Made by a program: the position numbers and the translations under genes | Part shown: positions 16,131 through 26,471 of the stretch, in pieces | Layout of the letters: every line of letters starts with the position of its first letter | Position numbering within the stretch: the first letter of the stretch is position 1 | Notes under the pieces: model-generated | Databases searched by the model: none | What the model was told of the DNA's origin: nothing | What the model saw: only the letters and a program-made list of their open reading frames with translations | From: Leptolinea tardivitalis | Lineage (GTDB): Bacteria; Chloroflexota; Anaerolineae; Anaerolineales; Anaerolineaceae | Length of the DNA stretch: 64,000 nucleotides | Assembly: GCF_001050275.1 (NCBI RefSeq) | Contig: NZ_BBYA01000008.1 | Coordinates: 620,001 to 684,000, forward strand | Direction of reading: 5' to 3'

Positions 16131-16592
16131 ATGAGCAATAAATTGCTGCAACTATTAGATAGTGAAGCTGTATGTTTGAAAATGGATGCCCGCGACGCGG
16201 CTGATGTTATTGAGAACCTGGGAATTCGTTTGTATATCGACGGGTATGTAAAAGATACCTTTGTTGATGCGGCAATGGCGCGCGAAAAGAAACTTCCTAC
16301 CGGGTTGCCGTTAGGAGGAGAAGTTAATGCGGCTATTCCACATACTGATGTTATTCATGTGTTAAAACCGGGGGTTGCCATGGCAACTTTGAAACGGCCG
16401 GTTATTTTTAAAAACATGATTTCACCCGATGAAGATGTTAATGTGCAGCTTGTTTTCTTGTTATCGTTGGAACAACCTAAATCTCAAATAGAGATGCTGC
16501 AGGAAATTGCTAGTGTTTTACAGCGGCCTGAAACTGTTGAAAAATTGATGGCCGCGACTACTTTTGAGGATGTTCAGGCTGCCCTGGCATAA
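16131..16592 (+). CDS. gatA: PTS EIIA component, galactitol/fructose type
   Basis: A 153-residue PTS_EIIA type-2 domain that takes phosphate from HPr and passes it to EIIB. The phosphorylated His is His71 in AAIPHTDVIHV. The start MSNKLLQLLDSEAVCLKMDA and the length fit GatA. It is followed by IIB and IIC genes in galactitol-family order. The substrate is uncertain: the family also moves other sugar alcohols and pentitols, and no catabolic dehydrogenase or aldolase lies nearby. Confidence 0.85.
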   Translation: MSNKLLQLLDSEAVCLKMDARDAADVIENLGIRLYIDGYVKDTFVDAAMAREKKLPTGLPLGGEVNAAIPHTDVIHVLKPGVAMATLKRPVIFKNMISPDEDVNVQLVFLLSLEQPKSQIEMLQEIASVLQRPETVEKLMAATTFEDVQAALA

Positions 16593-16921: not shown

Positions 16922-16967
16922 AACTAGGGACTCTCGACACTAAATAACTTGATGTTTGGAGGATTCG

Positions 16968-18359
16968 ATGGATGCATTTTTAGCTGGATTGAAAACTGTA
17001 ATTGATAGTTTGGGTTCAACGGTTGTCCTGCCTATCTTCATCTTCCTATTGGCATGGGCGATGGGAGCCAAACCCGCCCGCGCATTCCGCGCTGGTGTCA
17101 CCATCGGTATTGCTTTCATCGGCATTAACCTGGTGATCAACCTGATGTGGGGAAGCCTCTCTGGTGTTGCCCAGGCAATGGTTACCAACACTGGTATCAA
17201 ACTCGATACCGTTGATGTTGGTTGGCCTTCTGCCGCCGCCATCGCTTTTGGATCGTCCGTTGGTCTATGGGTCATTCCGATCGCATTGCTTGTCAACATT
17301 GTTCTTCTGTTCACGAATGTGACCAAGACCCTCAACGTAGACATCTGGAACTTCTGGCACTTCGCCTTCATCGGCTCCCTGATCGTAGCCGCCACCGGCC
17401 AGCTCTGGTACGGTTTGGTTGCTGCTGCCATTGCCGCTGCATTTGCTCTGTTCCTGGCTGACTGGACTGCGAAAGCTGTTCAGCACTTCTACGGACTTCC
17501 TGGAATTTCCATTCCCCATTTGACCTCAGCCCCTGTCGTTCCGATTGCTATCGGCGTGAACTGGCTGATCGAAAAAATCCCTGGTCTGCGCGATTTGAAT
17601 GCTGATACTGAAACCATTCAGAAAAAATTCGGCATTCTTGGTGAGCCTATTATTCAGGGTTTGGTCATTGGTCTGATCCTCGGTATCATTGGTTACTATA
17701 ATGCCGGCGATGCCGCTACCGTTATTTCAAAGGTTCTCCAGTGCGGTATGAACCTGGCGGCTGTTATGTTGCTGCTGCCCCGCATGGTAAAAATCTTGAT
17801 GGAAGGCCTTATCCCCGTATCAGAAGCTGCCCGCACCTTTATGCAGAAACACTACGGTGGACGTGAATTCTACATTGGTCTGGATTCTGCCATCTTGATT
17901 GGCCACCCGGCTGCCATTTCTTCATCCCTGGTACTGGTTCCCCTGGTGATCCTGTTATCCTTCATTCTGCCTGGCAATCATGTTCTCCTGTTTGCCGACC
18001 TGGCCATTATCCCGTTTGTTGTGGCCATGTGCGCACCTCTGATGAAGGGTAATGTTGTTCGCATCATCATTGCCGGTTTGATCACTCTTGGTGTCGGCTT
18101 CTACTTCGGTACCGGAATGGCAGATCTGTTCACCAGCGCTGCTCAGGCTGCCAAGTTCCAGATGCCTGAAAACGCTGTCAAAATCATCTCCATCGGTGAT
18201 GGTTTCCTGTGGCCGCCGTTTGTCTTCACCAACCTGGTGAAAGGCCTGGGCGTAGTTGGTCTCGTAATCCTCATCGCTGCCATCGCTGCCCTGTTCTTCT
18301 TCTTCTCCAAGAATACTAAGAGCTGGGAAAAAGCCGCCGGCGCTCCTGTAGAAGAATAG
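16968..18359 (+). CDS. gatC: PTS EIIC component, galactitol type
   Basis: A 463-residue polytopic membrane permease that moves the sugar alcohol while EIIB phosphorylates it. It has about ten or more hydrophobic segments and typical stretches such as WAMGAKPARAFRAGVTIGIA and GREFYIGLDSAILIGHPA. I chose the ATG at 16968: GGAGG at 16958-16962 is well placed, and the longer frame start at 16956 overlaps that site. Without an intact IIB the transporter would not phosphorylate its substrate. Confidence 0.88.
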   Translation: MDAFLAGLKTVIDSLGSTVVLPIFIFLLAWAMGAKPARAFRAGVTIGIAFIGINLVINLMWGSLSGVAQAMVTNTGIKLDTVDVGWPSAAAIAFGSSVGLWVIPIALLVNIVLLFTNVTKTLNVDIWNFWHFAFIGSLIVAATGQLWYGLVAAAIAAAFALFLADWTAKAVQHFYGLPGISIPHLTSAPVVPIAIGVNWLIEKIPGLRDLNADTETIQKKFGILGEPIIQGLVIGLILGIIGYYNAGDAATVISKVLQCGMNLAAVMLLLPRMVKILMEGLIPVSEAARTFMQKHYGGREFYIGLDSAILIGHPAAISSSLVLVPLVILLSFILPGNHVLLFADLAIIPFVVAMCAPLMKGNVVRIIIAGLITLGVGFYFGTGMADLFTSAAQAAKFQMPENAVKIISIGDGFLWPPFVFTNLVKGLGVVGLVILIAAIAALFFFFSKNTKSWEKAAGAPVEE

Positions 18360-18875: not shown

Positions 18876-19154
18876 TTGTCTGAAGCTAAATTTGTGGTTT
18901 CTCATCCAGCTGGTCTGCATGCCCGACCTGCATCTGTTTTTGTGAAAACATGCAATACGTTCCCATGTGATATTAAAGTTAAAAATGTGACAACCAATAG
19001 TGCAACCGTTAACGCAAAGAGTGTTTTAGCTGTATTGACTCTGGGAGTTGACTCTGGTCATGAAATCCTTGTCACTGCAAATGGAGACAGGGAAGGTGAG
19101 GTATTGACAGCCATTAAAGATTTGATCGATACCAACTTTGGAGAATCTGCCTGA
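18876..19154 (+). CDS. ptsH: Phosphocarrier protein HPr
   Basis: A 92-residue HPr that carries phosphate from enzyme I to EIIA. The active His15 lies in HPAGLHARPAS, and the regulatory-serine position is kept (Ser49 in NAKSVLAVLTLG). It starts at a TTG with AGGAGG 5 nt upstream. Enzyme I is not in the window, so ptsI lies elsewhere. Confidence 0.95.
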   Translation: MSEAKFVVSHPAGLHARPASVFVKTCNTFPCDIKVKNVTTNSATVNAKSVLAVLTLGVDSGHEILVTANGDREGEVLTAIKDLIDTNFGESA

Positions 19155-23527: not shown

Positions 23528-23932
23528 ATGGCAGTAGTACATCGTTTTATTGGAACAGATACAGCTTTTGATTGGGAAGATGTTCACTCCAAGAAATATG
23601 ATGACGGAGCAGCCAAAGGAGCAAGTGGCAAGATTTTAATCGGACGTGATGAAGGTGCCGAGCATTTTGTCTTCCGCTATTTCCTGATTCAACCAGGCGG
23701 CCATTCTGCCACCCGAGATTATCATGCCCACGTTCACGGCGTCATGATCCTACATGGACATGCCCGCGTTACAATTGAAGACCAGGTTTATGACCTGAAA
23801 CCGCGTGACCTAATCTTTATCAAACCCTGGGAGCATCATGATCTGGCCGCTGTTGGCGATGAACCTATGGGCTTCCTGTGTGTGATACCGAATAAAGAGA
23901 TGTTGGCAAAATTGGAAGAAGAAGCAAAATAG
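23528..23932 (+). CDS. Cupin-domain protein, candidate methylthio-sugar lyase partner of the RLP
   Basis: A 134-residue single cupin. The metal-binding motif is HxHxH (His66, His68, His70 in YHAHVHGVMILHG) with Gly where many cupins have Glu, and a second His pair in PWEHHDL (103-104). It lies 16 bp before a RuBisCO-like gene. In Rhodospirillum rubrum a cupin encoded near an RLP is the 1-methylthio-xylulose-5-phosphate methylsulfurylase of the MTA-isoprenoid shunt; the same role is inferred here from context only. A GAGG site precedes the ATG. Confidence 0.8.
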   Translation: MAVVHRFIGTDTAFDWEDVHSKKYDDGAAKGASGKILIGRDEGAEHFVFRYFLIQPGGHSATRDYHAHVHGVMILHGHARVTIEDQVYDLKPRDLIFIKPWEHHDLAAVGDEPMGFLCVIPNKEMLAKLEEEAK

Positions 23933-23948
23933 GAATAACGAGCGAAAT

Positions 23949-25091
23949 ATGAATTTCGATAAATCACTCAATTTATCGGGTGATCTCTTAACGGTTACCT
24001 ATTCTATCTTTTGTTCTCATGAAGATGCTGTGACCCAGGCGAAGGAAATTTCTGTCGAAAACACGATTGAGTTCCCGTTGGATCTTCTTCCCGAAGGTGA
24101 CATAAAGAATCATCTGACTGGGAAAGTACTTGAAGTTGAAGAGATTGGTCCCTCTCATAACCGAGTAGTCATTTCATATCCGGTAGAAACGACGGCTGAT
24201 GAGTTTATCTATGTTCTAAACGTTATGTTTGGAAACGTAAGCATGATGCGCAATGTTAAAGTTGAAAGCTTTGACCTGCCACCTGTACTCTTGCAACATT
24301 TCAAAGGTCCGCGTTTTGGACGTATTGGTTTACGCAAACTATTGAATGCAGCGACACGCCCGATGCTATGTGCGGCGCTAAAACCTTTGGGCTCATCGCC
24401 AAAAGAATTCGCGGATATTATTCGACTGATGGGACTGGGCGGCATTGATATCGTTAAAGAAGATCACAACATCGGGAACCAGAAATTTGCCCGTTTTAAA
24501 GACCGTGTCAAAGCATGTGCAGAAGCCATGCAGGAAGCCAATCAGAAAACCGGGTTCAAGAGCCTTTATATCCCCAATATAAGCGGTCCTGTAACTGAGG
24601 TATTGGAGAGAGCTTTATATGCTAAAGAAGTAGGCGCTGGTGGTGTAATGGTTATTCCTGGTCTTGTTGGCCTTGACTTCATACGTGTTCTTTCTGATGA
24701 CGATTCCTTCGGACTACCTATACTGCATCACCCGGCATTTCATGGAACCTACGTACATAATCCGATCCAGGGTTTTTCTTTTGGATGCTGGTATGGTCAG
24801 ATTCCGAGGCTGGTAGGTTCAGATGTAACCATTTTCCCCAATTACGGTGGACGCTTCTCATACCCTCGAGAAGGTGTTCAACAAATAATTGATCAGACAA
24901 AAGCCCCCATGGGACATATTCGGTCAATTTTCCCTGCGCCTGGTGGTGGTATGACCTTTGAGAATATACCGGATATATTGAAAGTATATGGCCGAGATGT
25001 TATGTTTTTGATGGGAGGCGGTCTATTCCGTAACGGACCTGACCTGACAGAAAACTGCCGAAAATTCAGAGAGCTGGTTGAAAGGGTATAA
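23949..25091 (+). CDS. RuBisCO-like protein (form IV)
   Basis: A 380-residue RuBisCO large-subunit homologue. The equivalent of Lys175 is kept (Lys145 in ALKPLG) but Lys177 is lost by a one-residue deletion. The carbamylated Lys201 is kept (Lys170), but the following metal ligands read KEDH instead of KDDE, so Glu204 is His. Loop 6 Lys334 has no match (NYGGRFSYP), while the phosphate-site glycines (APGGGM, MGGGLF) remain. This is not a CO2-fixing enzyme. It is expected to enolise or isomerise a pentulose phosphate. The gene lies between a cupin and an MtnA/eIF2B-like isomerase, 6 bp from the latter. Confidence 0.93.
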   Translation: MNFDKSLNLSGDLLTVTYSIFCSHEDAVTQAKEISVENTIEFPLDLLPEGDIKNHLTGKVLEVEEIGPSHNRVVISYPVETTADEFIYVLNVMFGNVSMMRNVKVESFDLPPVLLQHFKGPRFGRIGLRKLLNAATRPMLCAALKPLGSSPKEFADIIRLMGLGGIDIVKEDHNIGNQKFARFKDRVKACAEAMQEANQKTGFKSLYIPNISGPVTEVLERALYAKEVGAGGVMVIPGLVGLDFIRVLSDDDSFGLPILHHPAFHGTYVHNPIQGFSFGCWYGQIPRLVGSDVTIFPNYGGRFSYPREGVQQIIDQTKAPMGHIRSIFPAPGGGMTFENIPDILKVYGRDVMFLMGGGLFRNGPDLTENCRKFRELVERV

Positions 25092-25097
25092 ATCTCC

Positions 25098-26144
25098 ATG
25101 CCGTATGACTATGCTGACGGATTGGGTTTCCTGATTCATCCCAGGAATGTAGCCCGATATGAAGACGGAAAAGTATTCATCCTTGATCGGCGAATTTATC
25201 CGATGAAGGTTGAGTTTACAATCTGCACTGATTATCGAGAGGTTGTTCAAGCCATTCGTGACATGGTGACACAAAGTATGGGACCATGGTTGGCATCTGC
25301 CTGTGGAATGGTTCTGGCTGCCCATCAAGTAAAAAACATGAAAGCTCTAGAGGCTGAAGCTTTCATGAAAAAAGCCGCCGACGATTTGGGTCATGCACGT
25401 CCTACCACATCCGCTTTTCAGGTAAGACATATGCAGCGAATCCTTAATGTTTCCCTGAAAGCTTTGACTGATGGCAACGATATTGAGAAAGTCACATATG
25501 ATTTTGTACAAAAAATCCTTGAAGAACGGTATCTGGAAGATCGGAAAATCGGTTCTTTGACCGCCAGTTTACTTCCGCAAAATGTTAGATTGCTGACACA
25601 GTGTTTTGCTGAAACCTATATTGGTTATACCTTGTTGGAAGCAAAAAATGCCGGAAAGAATATTTCTTTGATCTGTCCGGAAACCCGGCCATTTCTGCAA
25701 GGTGCACGCCTGACGGCCAGCATGGCACAGGAAATGGGAATTCCCGTTACCGTTGTGACAGACAATATGCCTGCTTTCATGATGTCTCAGGGGTTGATAG
25801 ATGTTTTTGCCTGTGCGGCCGATGTTGTAACTCTGGATGGTTATGCAGTAAACAAAGTTGGAACTTTTCAAATTGCCATCGCAGCCCATTATCATAAGAT
25901 TCCCTGTTACATTCTAAGGAATCCTTCTCTCTCTGAACCAAATATCAATGGAGTTGAAATTGAACTTCGTGATCCGGAAGAAAGCCTGAAAGCATTGGGA
26001 ACCAAGACAGTAAAAGAAGGCGTGAAAGGCTATTATCCGGCATTCGATATCACTCCACCGACCTTAATCAGCGGGATAGTGACTTCATTGGGTGTGTTTT
26101 CACCCTTTGATTTGAAAAATCACTTTAGACCAGTTATTGAGTAA
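25098..26144 (+). CDS. MtnA/eIF2B-like sugar-phosphate isomerase
   Basis: A 348-residue protein of the family that includes methylthioribose-1-phosphate isomerase (MtnA), ribose-1,5-bisphosphate isomerase and eIF2B subunits. The two catalytic residues of MtnA appear kept: Cys169 (LLTQCF) and Asp242 (CAADVVTLDGYAVNKVGT). The substrate-binding stretch PETRPFLQGARLTA (194-207) is also present. The N terminus diverges from MtnA, with SMGPWLAS where RGAPAIG is usual, so the substrate may differ. Starts at an ATG 6 bp after the RLP stop. Confidence 0.85.
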   Translation: MPYDYADGLGFLIHPRNVARYEDGKVFILDRRIYPMKVEFTICTDYREVVQAIRDMVTQSMGPWLASACGMVLAAHQVKNMKALEAEAFMKKAADDLGHARPTTSAFQVRHMQRILNVSLKALTDGNDIEKVTYDFVQKILEERYLEDRKIGSLTASLLPQNVRLLTQCFAETYIGYTLLEAKNAGKNISLICPETRPFLQGARLTASMAQEMGIPVTVVTDNMPAFMMSQGLIDVFACAADVVTLDGYAVNKVGTFQIAIAAHYHKIPCYILRNPSLSEPNINGVEIELRDPEESLKALGTKTVKEGVKGYYPAFDITPPTLISGIVTSLGVFSPFDLKNHFRPVIE

Positions 26145-26172
26145 GAAACGAGCGCTGAAAGGCGCTCGTTTC
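26145..26172 (+). terminator. Terminator of the cupin-RLP-isomerase operon
   Basis: An 11-bp stem (GAAACGAGCGC 26145-26155 with GCGCTCGTTTC 26162-26172) starts directly after the isomerase stop codon. Confidence 0.7.
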
Positions 26173-26324: not shown

Positions 26325-26471
26325 ATGGTTTTTCACGAAAGTGAAAGGGGACAGGGGCTTGTAGAATACGCCTTAATTTTCCTTATGGTAGTACTTATTG
26401 TCATTGTATTAATCCCCTACATAGCTCCCTGGGTAAATTCAGCGTATAACAATGTCATCAATAATTTGTAA
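26325..26471 (+). CDS. Flp/TadE-type pilin-like small protein
   Basis: A 48-residue protein with the type IVb pilin N-terminal pattern: a short leader, then ERGQGLVEYALIFLMVVLIV with the conserved Glu5-equivalent in the hydrophobic helix. The ATG at 26325 follows AAAGGAGG by 6 nt; the frame is open to 26289 but has no such site. No Tad/Cpa secretion genes are nearby, so it is an orphan pilin gene in this window. The processing site would lie just before or within ERGQG. Confidence 0.8.
   Translation: MVFHESERGQGLVEYALIFLMVVLIVIVLIPYIAPWVNSAYNNVINNL

Follow-up and report, generated by a model that had tools for sequence, protein, structure and literature searches.

A cupin, RuBisCO-like protein and divergent MtnA-like isomerase operon in Leptolinea tardivitalis and its possible role in sulfur release

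Which reactions are served by an operon that sets a cupin and a RuBisCO-like protein (RLP) beside a divergent relative of the isomerase MtnA? The question is raised by a 64,000-nucleotide stretch of Leptolinea tardivitalis DNA (contig 8, positions 620001-684000; hereafter the window) from a 3.69 Mb genome that is 99.33% complete. The positions of the open reading frames (ORFs) bear out the compact three-gene operon described in an earlier note on this DNA, with intergenic gaps of 16 and 6 bases:

23528-23932, + strand: cupin, 134 aa (Cupin_2, 54.6 bits)
23949-25091, + strand: RLP, 380 aa (RuBisCO_large, 110.8 bits)
25098-26144, + strand: divergent MtnA-like sugar-1-phosphate isomerase, 348 aa (IF-2B, 155.1 bits)
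26145-26172, + strand: stem-loop, candidate terminator without a T-run (-23.7 kcal/mol, z -6.1)

From gene content, kinship, key active-site residues and the neighbours of relatives we infer the substrate and reactions as follows, with a probability of roughly 0.5: the three gene products act one after another on a 5-substituted 5-deoxyribose-1-phosphate, the likeliest candidate being 5-methylthioribose-1-phosphate. This sugar phosphate would come from the genome's unlinked methylthioadenosine (MTA) phosphorylase; the MtnA-like isomerase would convert it to the ribulose-1-phosphate, the RLP would shift the carbonyl by 1,3-isomerisation to give 1-methylthioxylulose-5-phosphate, and the operon would release methanethiol and 1-deoxyxylulose-5-phosphate (DXP). 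Our preferred view is that the operon represents a variant of the sulfur-release module of Rhodospirillum rubrum, with another isomerase and no detectable isoprenoid outlet.

Kinship of the RLP and the cupin

The top PDB match of the RLP is 3qfw (226 bits), which we take to be RLP1 of Rhodopseudomonas palustris, the PDB table giving no organism. In spinach RuBisCO numbering, K145 and K170 are the retained equivalents of Lys175 and Lys201, Lys177 is lost, and Glu204, Arg295 and the loop-6 Lys334 are replaced by H173, P262 and R302, respectively, in agreement with the residues previously noted as kept (Lys175, Lys201) or lost (Lys177, Glu204, Lys334). Across the seven motifs compared, the RLP is identical to 3qfw at K145, K170, D172, H173, H261, P262, R302 and the glycines, and it carries the 3qfw-type motifs KP-xG, K(D/E)DH, HP, GGRF and GG; within these motifs the two differ at L147 (Q in 3qfw), E171 (D) and N174 (G). 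MtnW-type references share the HP motif with the window RLP and have KDDE and YGSV in place of its KEDH and GGRF. At six positions (N38, Y88, G162, E171, N174 and V310), the window RLP departs from a residue that 85% or more of the 58 related sequences have in common. The earlier remark that residues differ from those of known members therefore holds for the isomerase and not for the catalytic positions of the RLP. In the available part of the published account, R. palustris RLP1 converts 5-methylthioribulose-1-phosphate to 1-methylthioxylulose-5-phosphate, and a cupin step yields DXP and S-methylthio-glutathione (PMC5893883).

In a form IV tree of 66 sequences (LG+G4), in which support is weak at several deep nodes and missing at one node, the window RLP pairs with the type encoded at the other RLP locus of the genome (89.2/99), followed by a type linked to phosphotransferase system (PTS) and VOC genes (98.1/100). 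The phylogeny and active-site comparison proposed in the earlier note thus place it apart from MtnW and in one superclade with the 3qfw subclade (97.8/99). The 3qfw subclade itself (100/100 node), which includes several cupin-linked RLPs, does not contain the window RLP.

The cupin matches PDB entries 3ibm (77.9 bits), 3jzv (59.3 bits) and 3kgz (52.7 bits), and the second of these is the 'uncharacterized protein Rru_A2000'. In the part of PMC4958253 available to us, Rru_A2000 is the cupin-type 1-methylthioxylulose-5-phosphate sulfurylase of the R. rubrum MTA-isoprenoid shunt, and Rru_A1998 is the RLP of that shunt. Alignment with references confirms the HxHxH site reported earlier for the window cupin and the retention of the motif-2 His; judged by homology and these residues, the window cupin is related to Rru_A2000, the 1-methylthioxylulose-5-phosphate methylsulfurylase. 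RLP and cupin genes like those of R. rubrum are already noted for R. palustris, Meiothermus, Nitrococcus and Halorhodospira in the same part of PMC4958253, so the RLP-cupin pair is not new.

Compared with the MTA-isoprenoid shunt of R. rubrum and R. palustris (MtnP, MtnA, DeepYkr RLP, cupin), the window likewise has homologous cupin and RLP genes side by side, 3qfw-type key residues in the RLP, an MtnA-family isomerase and an MTA phosphorylase in the genome. It differs in that the isomerase lies inside the operon and belongs to another subfamily, the RLP stands outside the 3qfw subclade, and Dxr and Dxs were not found in the genome, hence no methylerythritol phosphate (MEP) sink. The suggestion that the operon is a version of that shunt thus gains from the kinship of cupin and RLP and from the nucleoside-type loci of the isomerase's relatives, and loses from the position of the RLP in the tree.

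The isomerase subfamily and the genomic background

Against the MtnA subfamily model NF004326 (PRK05720) the isomerase scores 284.6 bits, above the cut-off of 271. Alignment with MtnA references confirmed that the aligned Cys and Asp are retained and that the N-terminal loop is different, as had been noted: TQSMGPWL stands where MtnA has RGAPAIG, and the CNAG loop is absent as well. The Cys and Asp are presumably catalytic. Close relatives (41-78% identity) occur in 20 other genomes, that is, in 21 of 151 genomes of the order with its own; the remaining matches are ordinary MtnA by score (28-35%), apart from two (37-39%) confined to short segments at the C-terminus. By eye, the 20 aligned loci (window included; L116 left out, as the clustering gave it no isomerase) share MVTQ, or MVVQ in L117, in place of VRGAPAIG and keep the Cys and Asp, and most members have CFAET- and DNMP-like motifs. 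By these sequence features, the window isomerase is assigned to its own distinct MtnA-like subfamily.

The loci of this subfamily resemble 5'-deoxynucleoside salvage. A phosphorylase resembling those of MTA or methylthioinosine (MTAP/MTIP) is present in 16 of the 20 (on the other strand in L104), a deaminase-like amidohydrolase in 14, QueT-like and CbiQ-like transporter parts in 10 each and a class II aldolase in six, with names taken from scans of single representatives (L112, L102, L106) and from clustering. The combination of phosphorylase, deaminase-like gene and aldolase (6/20) recalls the dihydroxyacetone phosphate (DHAP) shunt for MTA and 5'-deoxyadenosine (MtnK or MtnP, MtnA, Ald2), whereas in the window operon an RLP and a cupin take the place of the aldolase. 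Additionally, the window's RLP clade is somewhat more frequent than expected among genomes with the isomerase subfamily, occurring in 6 of the 21 versus 17 of 151 overall (p = 0.016, kinship ignored). Among these loci, L112:6226-13929 holds QueT-like, CbiQ-like and ECF-ATPase importer genes, the amidohydrolase, the phosphorylase, the divergent isomerase and an RpiR-family regulator.

One of the four genes of the purine nucleoside phosphorylase (PNP) superfamily in the genome is the MTA phosphorylase whose presence the earlier note had asked about (TIGR01694, 295.9 bits against a cut-off of 274.85); it is unlinked to the operon. To the extent covered by the searches for MtnW and MtnD, a complete classical MTA pathway elsewhere, which would have spoken against the proposal, was not seen. 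The genome has only two RLPs, neither MtnW-like, and MtnW was not found; acireductone dioxygenase (ARD/MtnD) had no match in the three genomes of the genus (G000, G001, G003) or in G534, a Bacillota genome with a transketolase-linked RLP, in a search with a weak control (5 of 14 genomes, two above cut-off). The second RLP, 49% identical to that of the window, lies in L035:9521-14144 with a canonical MtnA, a SorC/DeoR-type regulator, a YjbQ-family (UPF0047) gene and a 220-aa protein without an NCBIfam match, neighbours named by clustering with scanned relatives; the RLP, MtnA, YjbQ and 220-aa genes recur together in L041 and L042.

Points against the reading, rival substrates and purpose

Several results weigh against methylthioribose-1-phosphate processing by this operon. 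The isomerase falls below the cut-off of the MtnA equivalog model (TIGR00512, 192.4 against 279 bits), and since the genome already has the canonical MtnA near the second RLP (435.1 bits on the same model), the window isomerase may act on another substrate. The representative phosphorylase (222.1 against 274.85 for MTAP, 220.4 against 223 for MTIP) and amidohydrolase (best 433.7 against 540; 369.2 against 522 on the 5'-deoxyadenosine deaminase model) of its relatives stay under every curated cut-off shown, and inspection by eye of the ORFs surrounding the window operon revealed no importer, deaminase or phosphorylase; the three isomerase loci of the genus (G000, G001, G003) lack such partners. 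Furthermore, 15 of the 21 genomes with the isomerase subfamily lack an RLP of this clade, and the window cupin has HHDL in place of the WHQF of 3jzv and 3kgz. Within the genus, G003 has PTS genes followed by the cupin (94% identical) and the isomerase (76%) with no RLP between them, and G001 has the isomerase (78%) without cupin or RLP; G003 encodes two other RLPs elsewhere and G001 none. These arrangements show that the RLP was gained or lost by the operon within one genus, and they weaken a strict dependence between cupin and RLP. Finally, Dxr had no match in G000, G001 or G003 (one in G534; control positive in 9 of 14 genomes).

The same searches bear on the purpose of the operon. No Dxs scored above cut-off in any of the 151 genomes (three sub-cut-off matches at E <= 1e-60; control above cut-off in 10 of 14), and with neither Dxr nor Dxs above cut-off, DXP lacks a canonical outlet into isoprenoids in this genome (mevalonate genes lay outside the search). 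The isoprenoid end point previously envisaged is thus not borne out. With DXP barred from the canonical MEP pathway in this host, the operon probably serves to salvage sulfur or to detoxify, not to supply isoprenoids. Use of DXP for thiamine was also considered and is unsupported: the ThiG search gave one weak match in the genome (28.8 bits over 54 model positions; the best listed in the set was 32.7), which looks partial and to another protein of ~300 aa. A thiamine link had been hinted at by the YjbQ-family gene beside the second RLP.

Two other substrates deserve weighing. It is possible, though unlikely, that the operon starts from 5-deoxyribose-1-phosphate derived from 5'-deoxyadenosine, a by-product of radical SAM enzymes, in which case the isomerase and the RLP would lead directly to DXP and the cupin would act elsewhere or on a side substrate. 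The L112 scores given above on the 5'-deoxyadenosine deaminase model and, just under its cut-off, on the methylthioinosine phosphorylase model are consistent with this route; in the available part of PMC6302742, Methanocaldococcus jannaschii handles the 5-deoxyribose sugar by deamination, MtiP and a proposed isomerase, MJ0454, and the part of PMC10986504 at hand lists MtnK, MtnA and Ald2 as active on both sugars. Yet such a route needs no thiol-removing cupin, whereas in G003 it is the cupin that is the better conserved (94% against 76% for the isomerase), and the literature consulted, available in part, reports no RLP activity on 5-deoxyribulose-1-phosphate. We consider it improbable that the operon acts on some other sugar phosphate, for example one imported by a galactitol-type PTS encoded about 5-7 kb upstream:

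16131-16592: PTS EIIA, galactitol-type
16956-18359: PTS EIIC, galactitol-type
18876-19154: HPr-like protein (by eye)

The proximity of EIIA and EIIC, the sister RLPs in EIIC-EIIA-EIIB-VOC-RLP clusters and the same PTS (EIIC 97% identical) ahead of the cupin-isomerase pair in G003 favour this substrate source. We give it low odds because, of the 20 further genomes with an EIIC orthologue (59-72% identity), 18 lack this RLP clade; moreover, an opposite-strand gene resembling threonyl-tRNA synthetase by eye separates the PTS from the operon, and the other isomerase loci mostly hold nucleoside-type genes, not PTS genes.

That the RLP is itself the 2,3-diketo-5-methylthiopentyl-1-phosphate (DK-MTP-1P) enolase MtnW or the apionate-pathway decarboxylase OiaX is very improbable. 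Like Bacillus MtnW, it is a form IV RLP that would serve methionine salvage, and like OiaX, the 3-oxo-isoapionate-4-phosphate decarboxylase, it would act in sugar-phosphate catabolism. It matches their models weakly, with 156.7 bits on TIGR03332 and 210.8 on NF007095 for MtnW and 85.5 on NF042437 for OiaX, far below the respective cut-offs of 513.6, 409 and 700; by the OiaX score, the apionate-type kinship that would have contradicted the earlier proposal is not borne out. The tree sets it apart from references 2zvi and 4nas, its active-site motifs are KEDH for KDDE and GGRF for YGSV, and the MtnD partner was not found. Both identities were rejected on scores and motifs. The methylthioribose-1-phosphate reading would, if true, extend the sulfur-release chemistry of R. 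rubrum to bacteria in which no MEP pathway is found, decouple the RLP-cupin pair from isoprenoid supply and draw attention to a distinct MtnA-like isomerase subfamily.

RLP relatives with a cupin or a split transketolase

We examined 58 RLP loci, window included, excluding L071-L074, which lie with or near MtnW-type references; the loci are mutually related and were partly picked by similarity to the window RLP. Neighbours had to lie on the same strand within 6.5 kb, and since longest-ORF calls missed genes in high-GC loci, counts were taken from hidden Markov model (HMM) hits to six-frame ORFs, with HMMs trained on clusters to which some of the subsequently scored loci belong, which makes those scores non-independent. 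TktN or TktC, the parts of a split transketolase, were found in 22 loci, a cupin in 11 (~5 kb from the RLP in L050), both in none and neither in 25, the last being an upper bound because some contigs end near the RLP (e.g., L036, L037, L043, L064, L065, L069, L094). An MtnA-family gene is present in 15 of the 58, 11 of them with transketolase; the window alone has it with a cupin.

This RLP clade occurs in 17 of the 151 genomes (own included, E < 1e-100), and a profile search of the phylum gave 17 of 400 genomes at E <= 1e-60, including its own and four more distant RLPs. Around a Bacillota genome, the clade is found in 21 of 149 genomes (19 fetched besides L003), and it has plasmid-borne members too. 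TktC of the RLP-linked type (at least 367 bits; next best 262) occurs in nine of the 151 genomes, all nine among the 17 with this RLP (hypergeometric 3e-10, kinship ignored), and in none of the window's genus in that search. The full set of importer, MtnK, MtnA, TktN, TktC and RLP is found both within the order and phylum of the window (L048, L061) and on plasmids of Alphaproteobacteria (L053, L054, L057), including:

L048:7802-18024: importer, MtnK, MtnA, split transketolase, RLP
L061:7393-17563: the same set
L053:924-9116: the same set, importer on the other strand

L048 and L061 additionally hold a solute-binding-protein-like gene and a SorC/DeoR-type regulator, and MtnK of L048 scores 483.7 bits (cut-off 275). 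The complete transketolase operon is thus present in two phyla and the RLP-transketolase pair in three, with TktN-TktC-RLP in a Bacillota metagenome-assembled genome (L003); a Ponticoccus locus combines phosphorylase, amidohydrolase, mtnA, molybdopterin oxidoreductase, TktN, TktC and RLP. All 20 TktN sequences covering the site have lost the GHP-motif His of 6yak and human transketolase and mostly keep the KGH His. The lost His presumably binds the donor C1-hydroxyl, and its absence would be in keeping with a donor that lacks this group.

We tentatively propose, at somewhat less than an even chance, that the window RLP's largely undescribed superclade isomerises 5-substituted ribulose-1-phosphates to 1-substituted xylulose-5-phosphates, many members working with a dedicated split transketolase and others with a cupin as the alternative exit. 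The transketolase would use thiamine diphosphate to cleave the RLP product into glyceraldehyde-3-phosphate and a substituted two-carbon unit, possibly losing the thiol; the window would represent the cupin branch, in a host where no MEP pathway is detectable. No description of an RLP-transketolase operon was found in the literature searched, which held few subscription papers, and these loci look like an undescribed pathway. The relatives with a split transketolase are the more novel finding. If true, the importer-MtnK-MtnA-TktN-TktC-RLP set would constitute a new route for processing methylthioribose or 5-deoxyribose that needs neither oxygen nor an aldolase, and the alternation of cupin and split transketolase as partners would provide a large group of form IV RLPs with a testable function.

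Other arrangements accompany this clade. On a Vibrio nigripulchritudo plasmid (L055:5003-10638), an FGGY-family kinase comes next after TktN-TktC-RLP, and the annotation of this stretch includes neither MtnK nor MtnA; this points to a different sugar as the entry point. In L044, L047, L049 and L052, the RLP has PTS components and a VOC protein (glyoxalase fold) as cluster neighbours. The PTS components are EIIC, EIIA and EIIB in L044, L047 and L052 and EIIB in the short L049; L047 has a cupin as well.

At the 3' end of the window operon, the stem-loop starts directly after the isomerase stop codon and is a plausible terminator; of the operon-end terminator reported earlier, the strong hairpin stands, while the T-run is absent and the pattern-based terminator scan did not list the site. 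The large ORF upstream of the cupin has no Pfam match, and a 53%-identical version of it precedes the isomerase in G001. Just 3' of the operon, at 26325-26471, lies a 48-aa short reading frame with, by eye, a Flp-pilin-like N-terminus.

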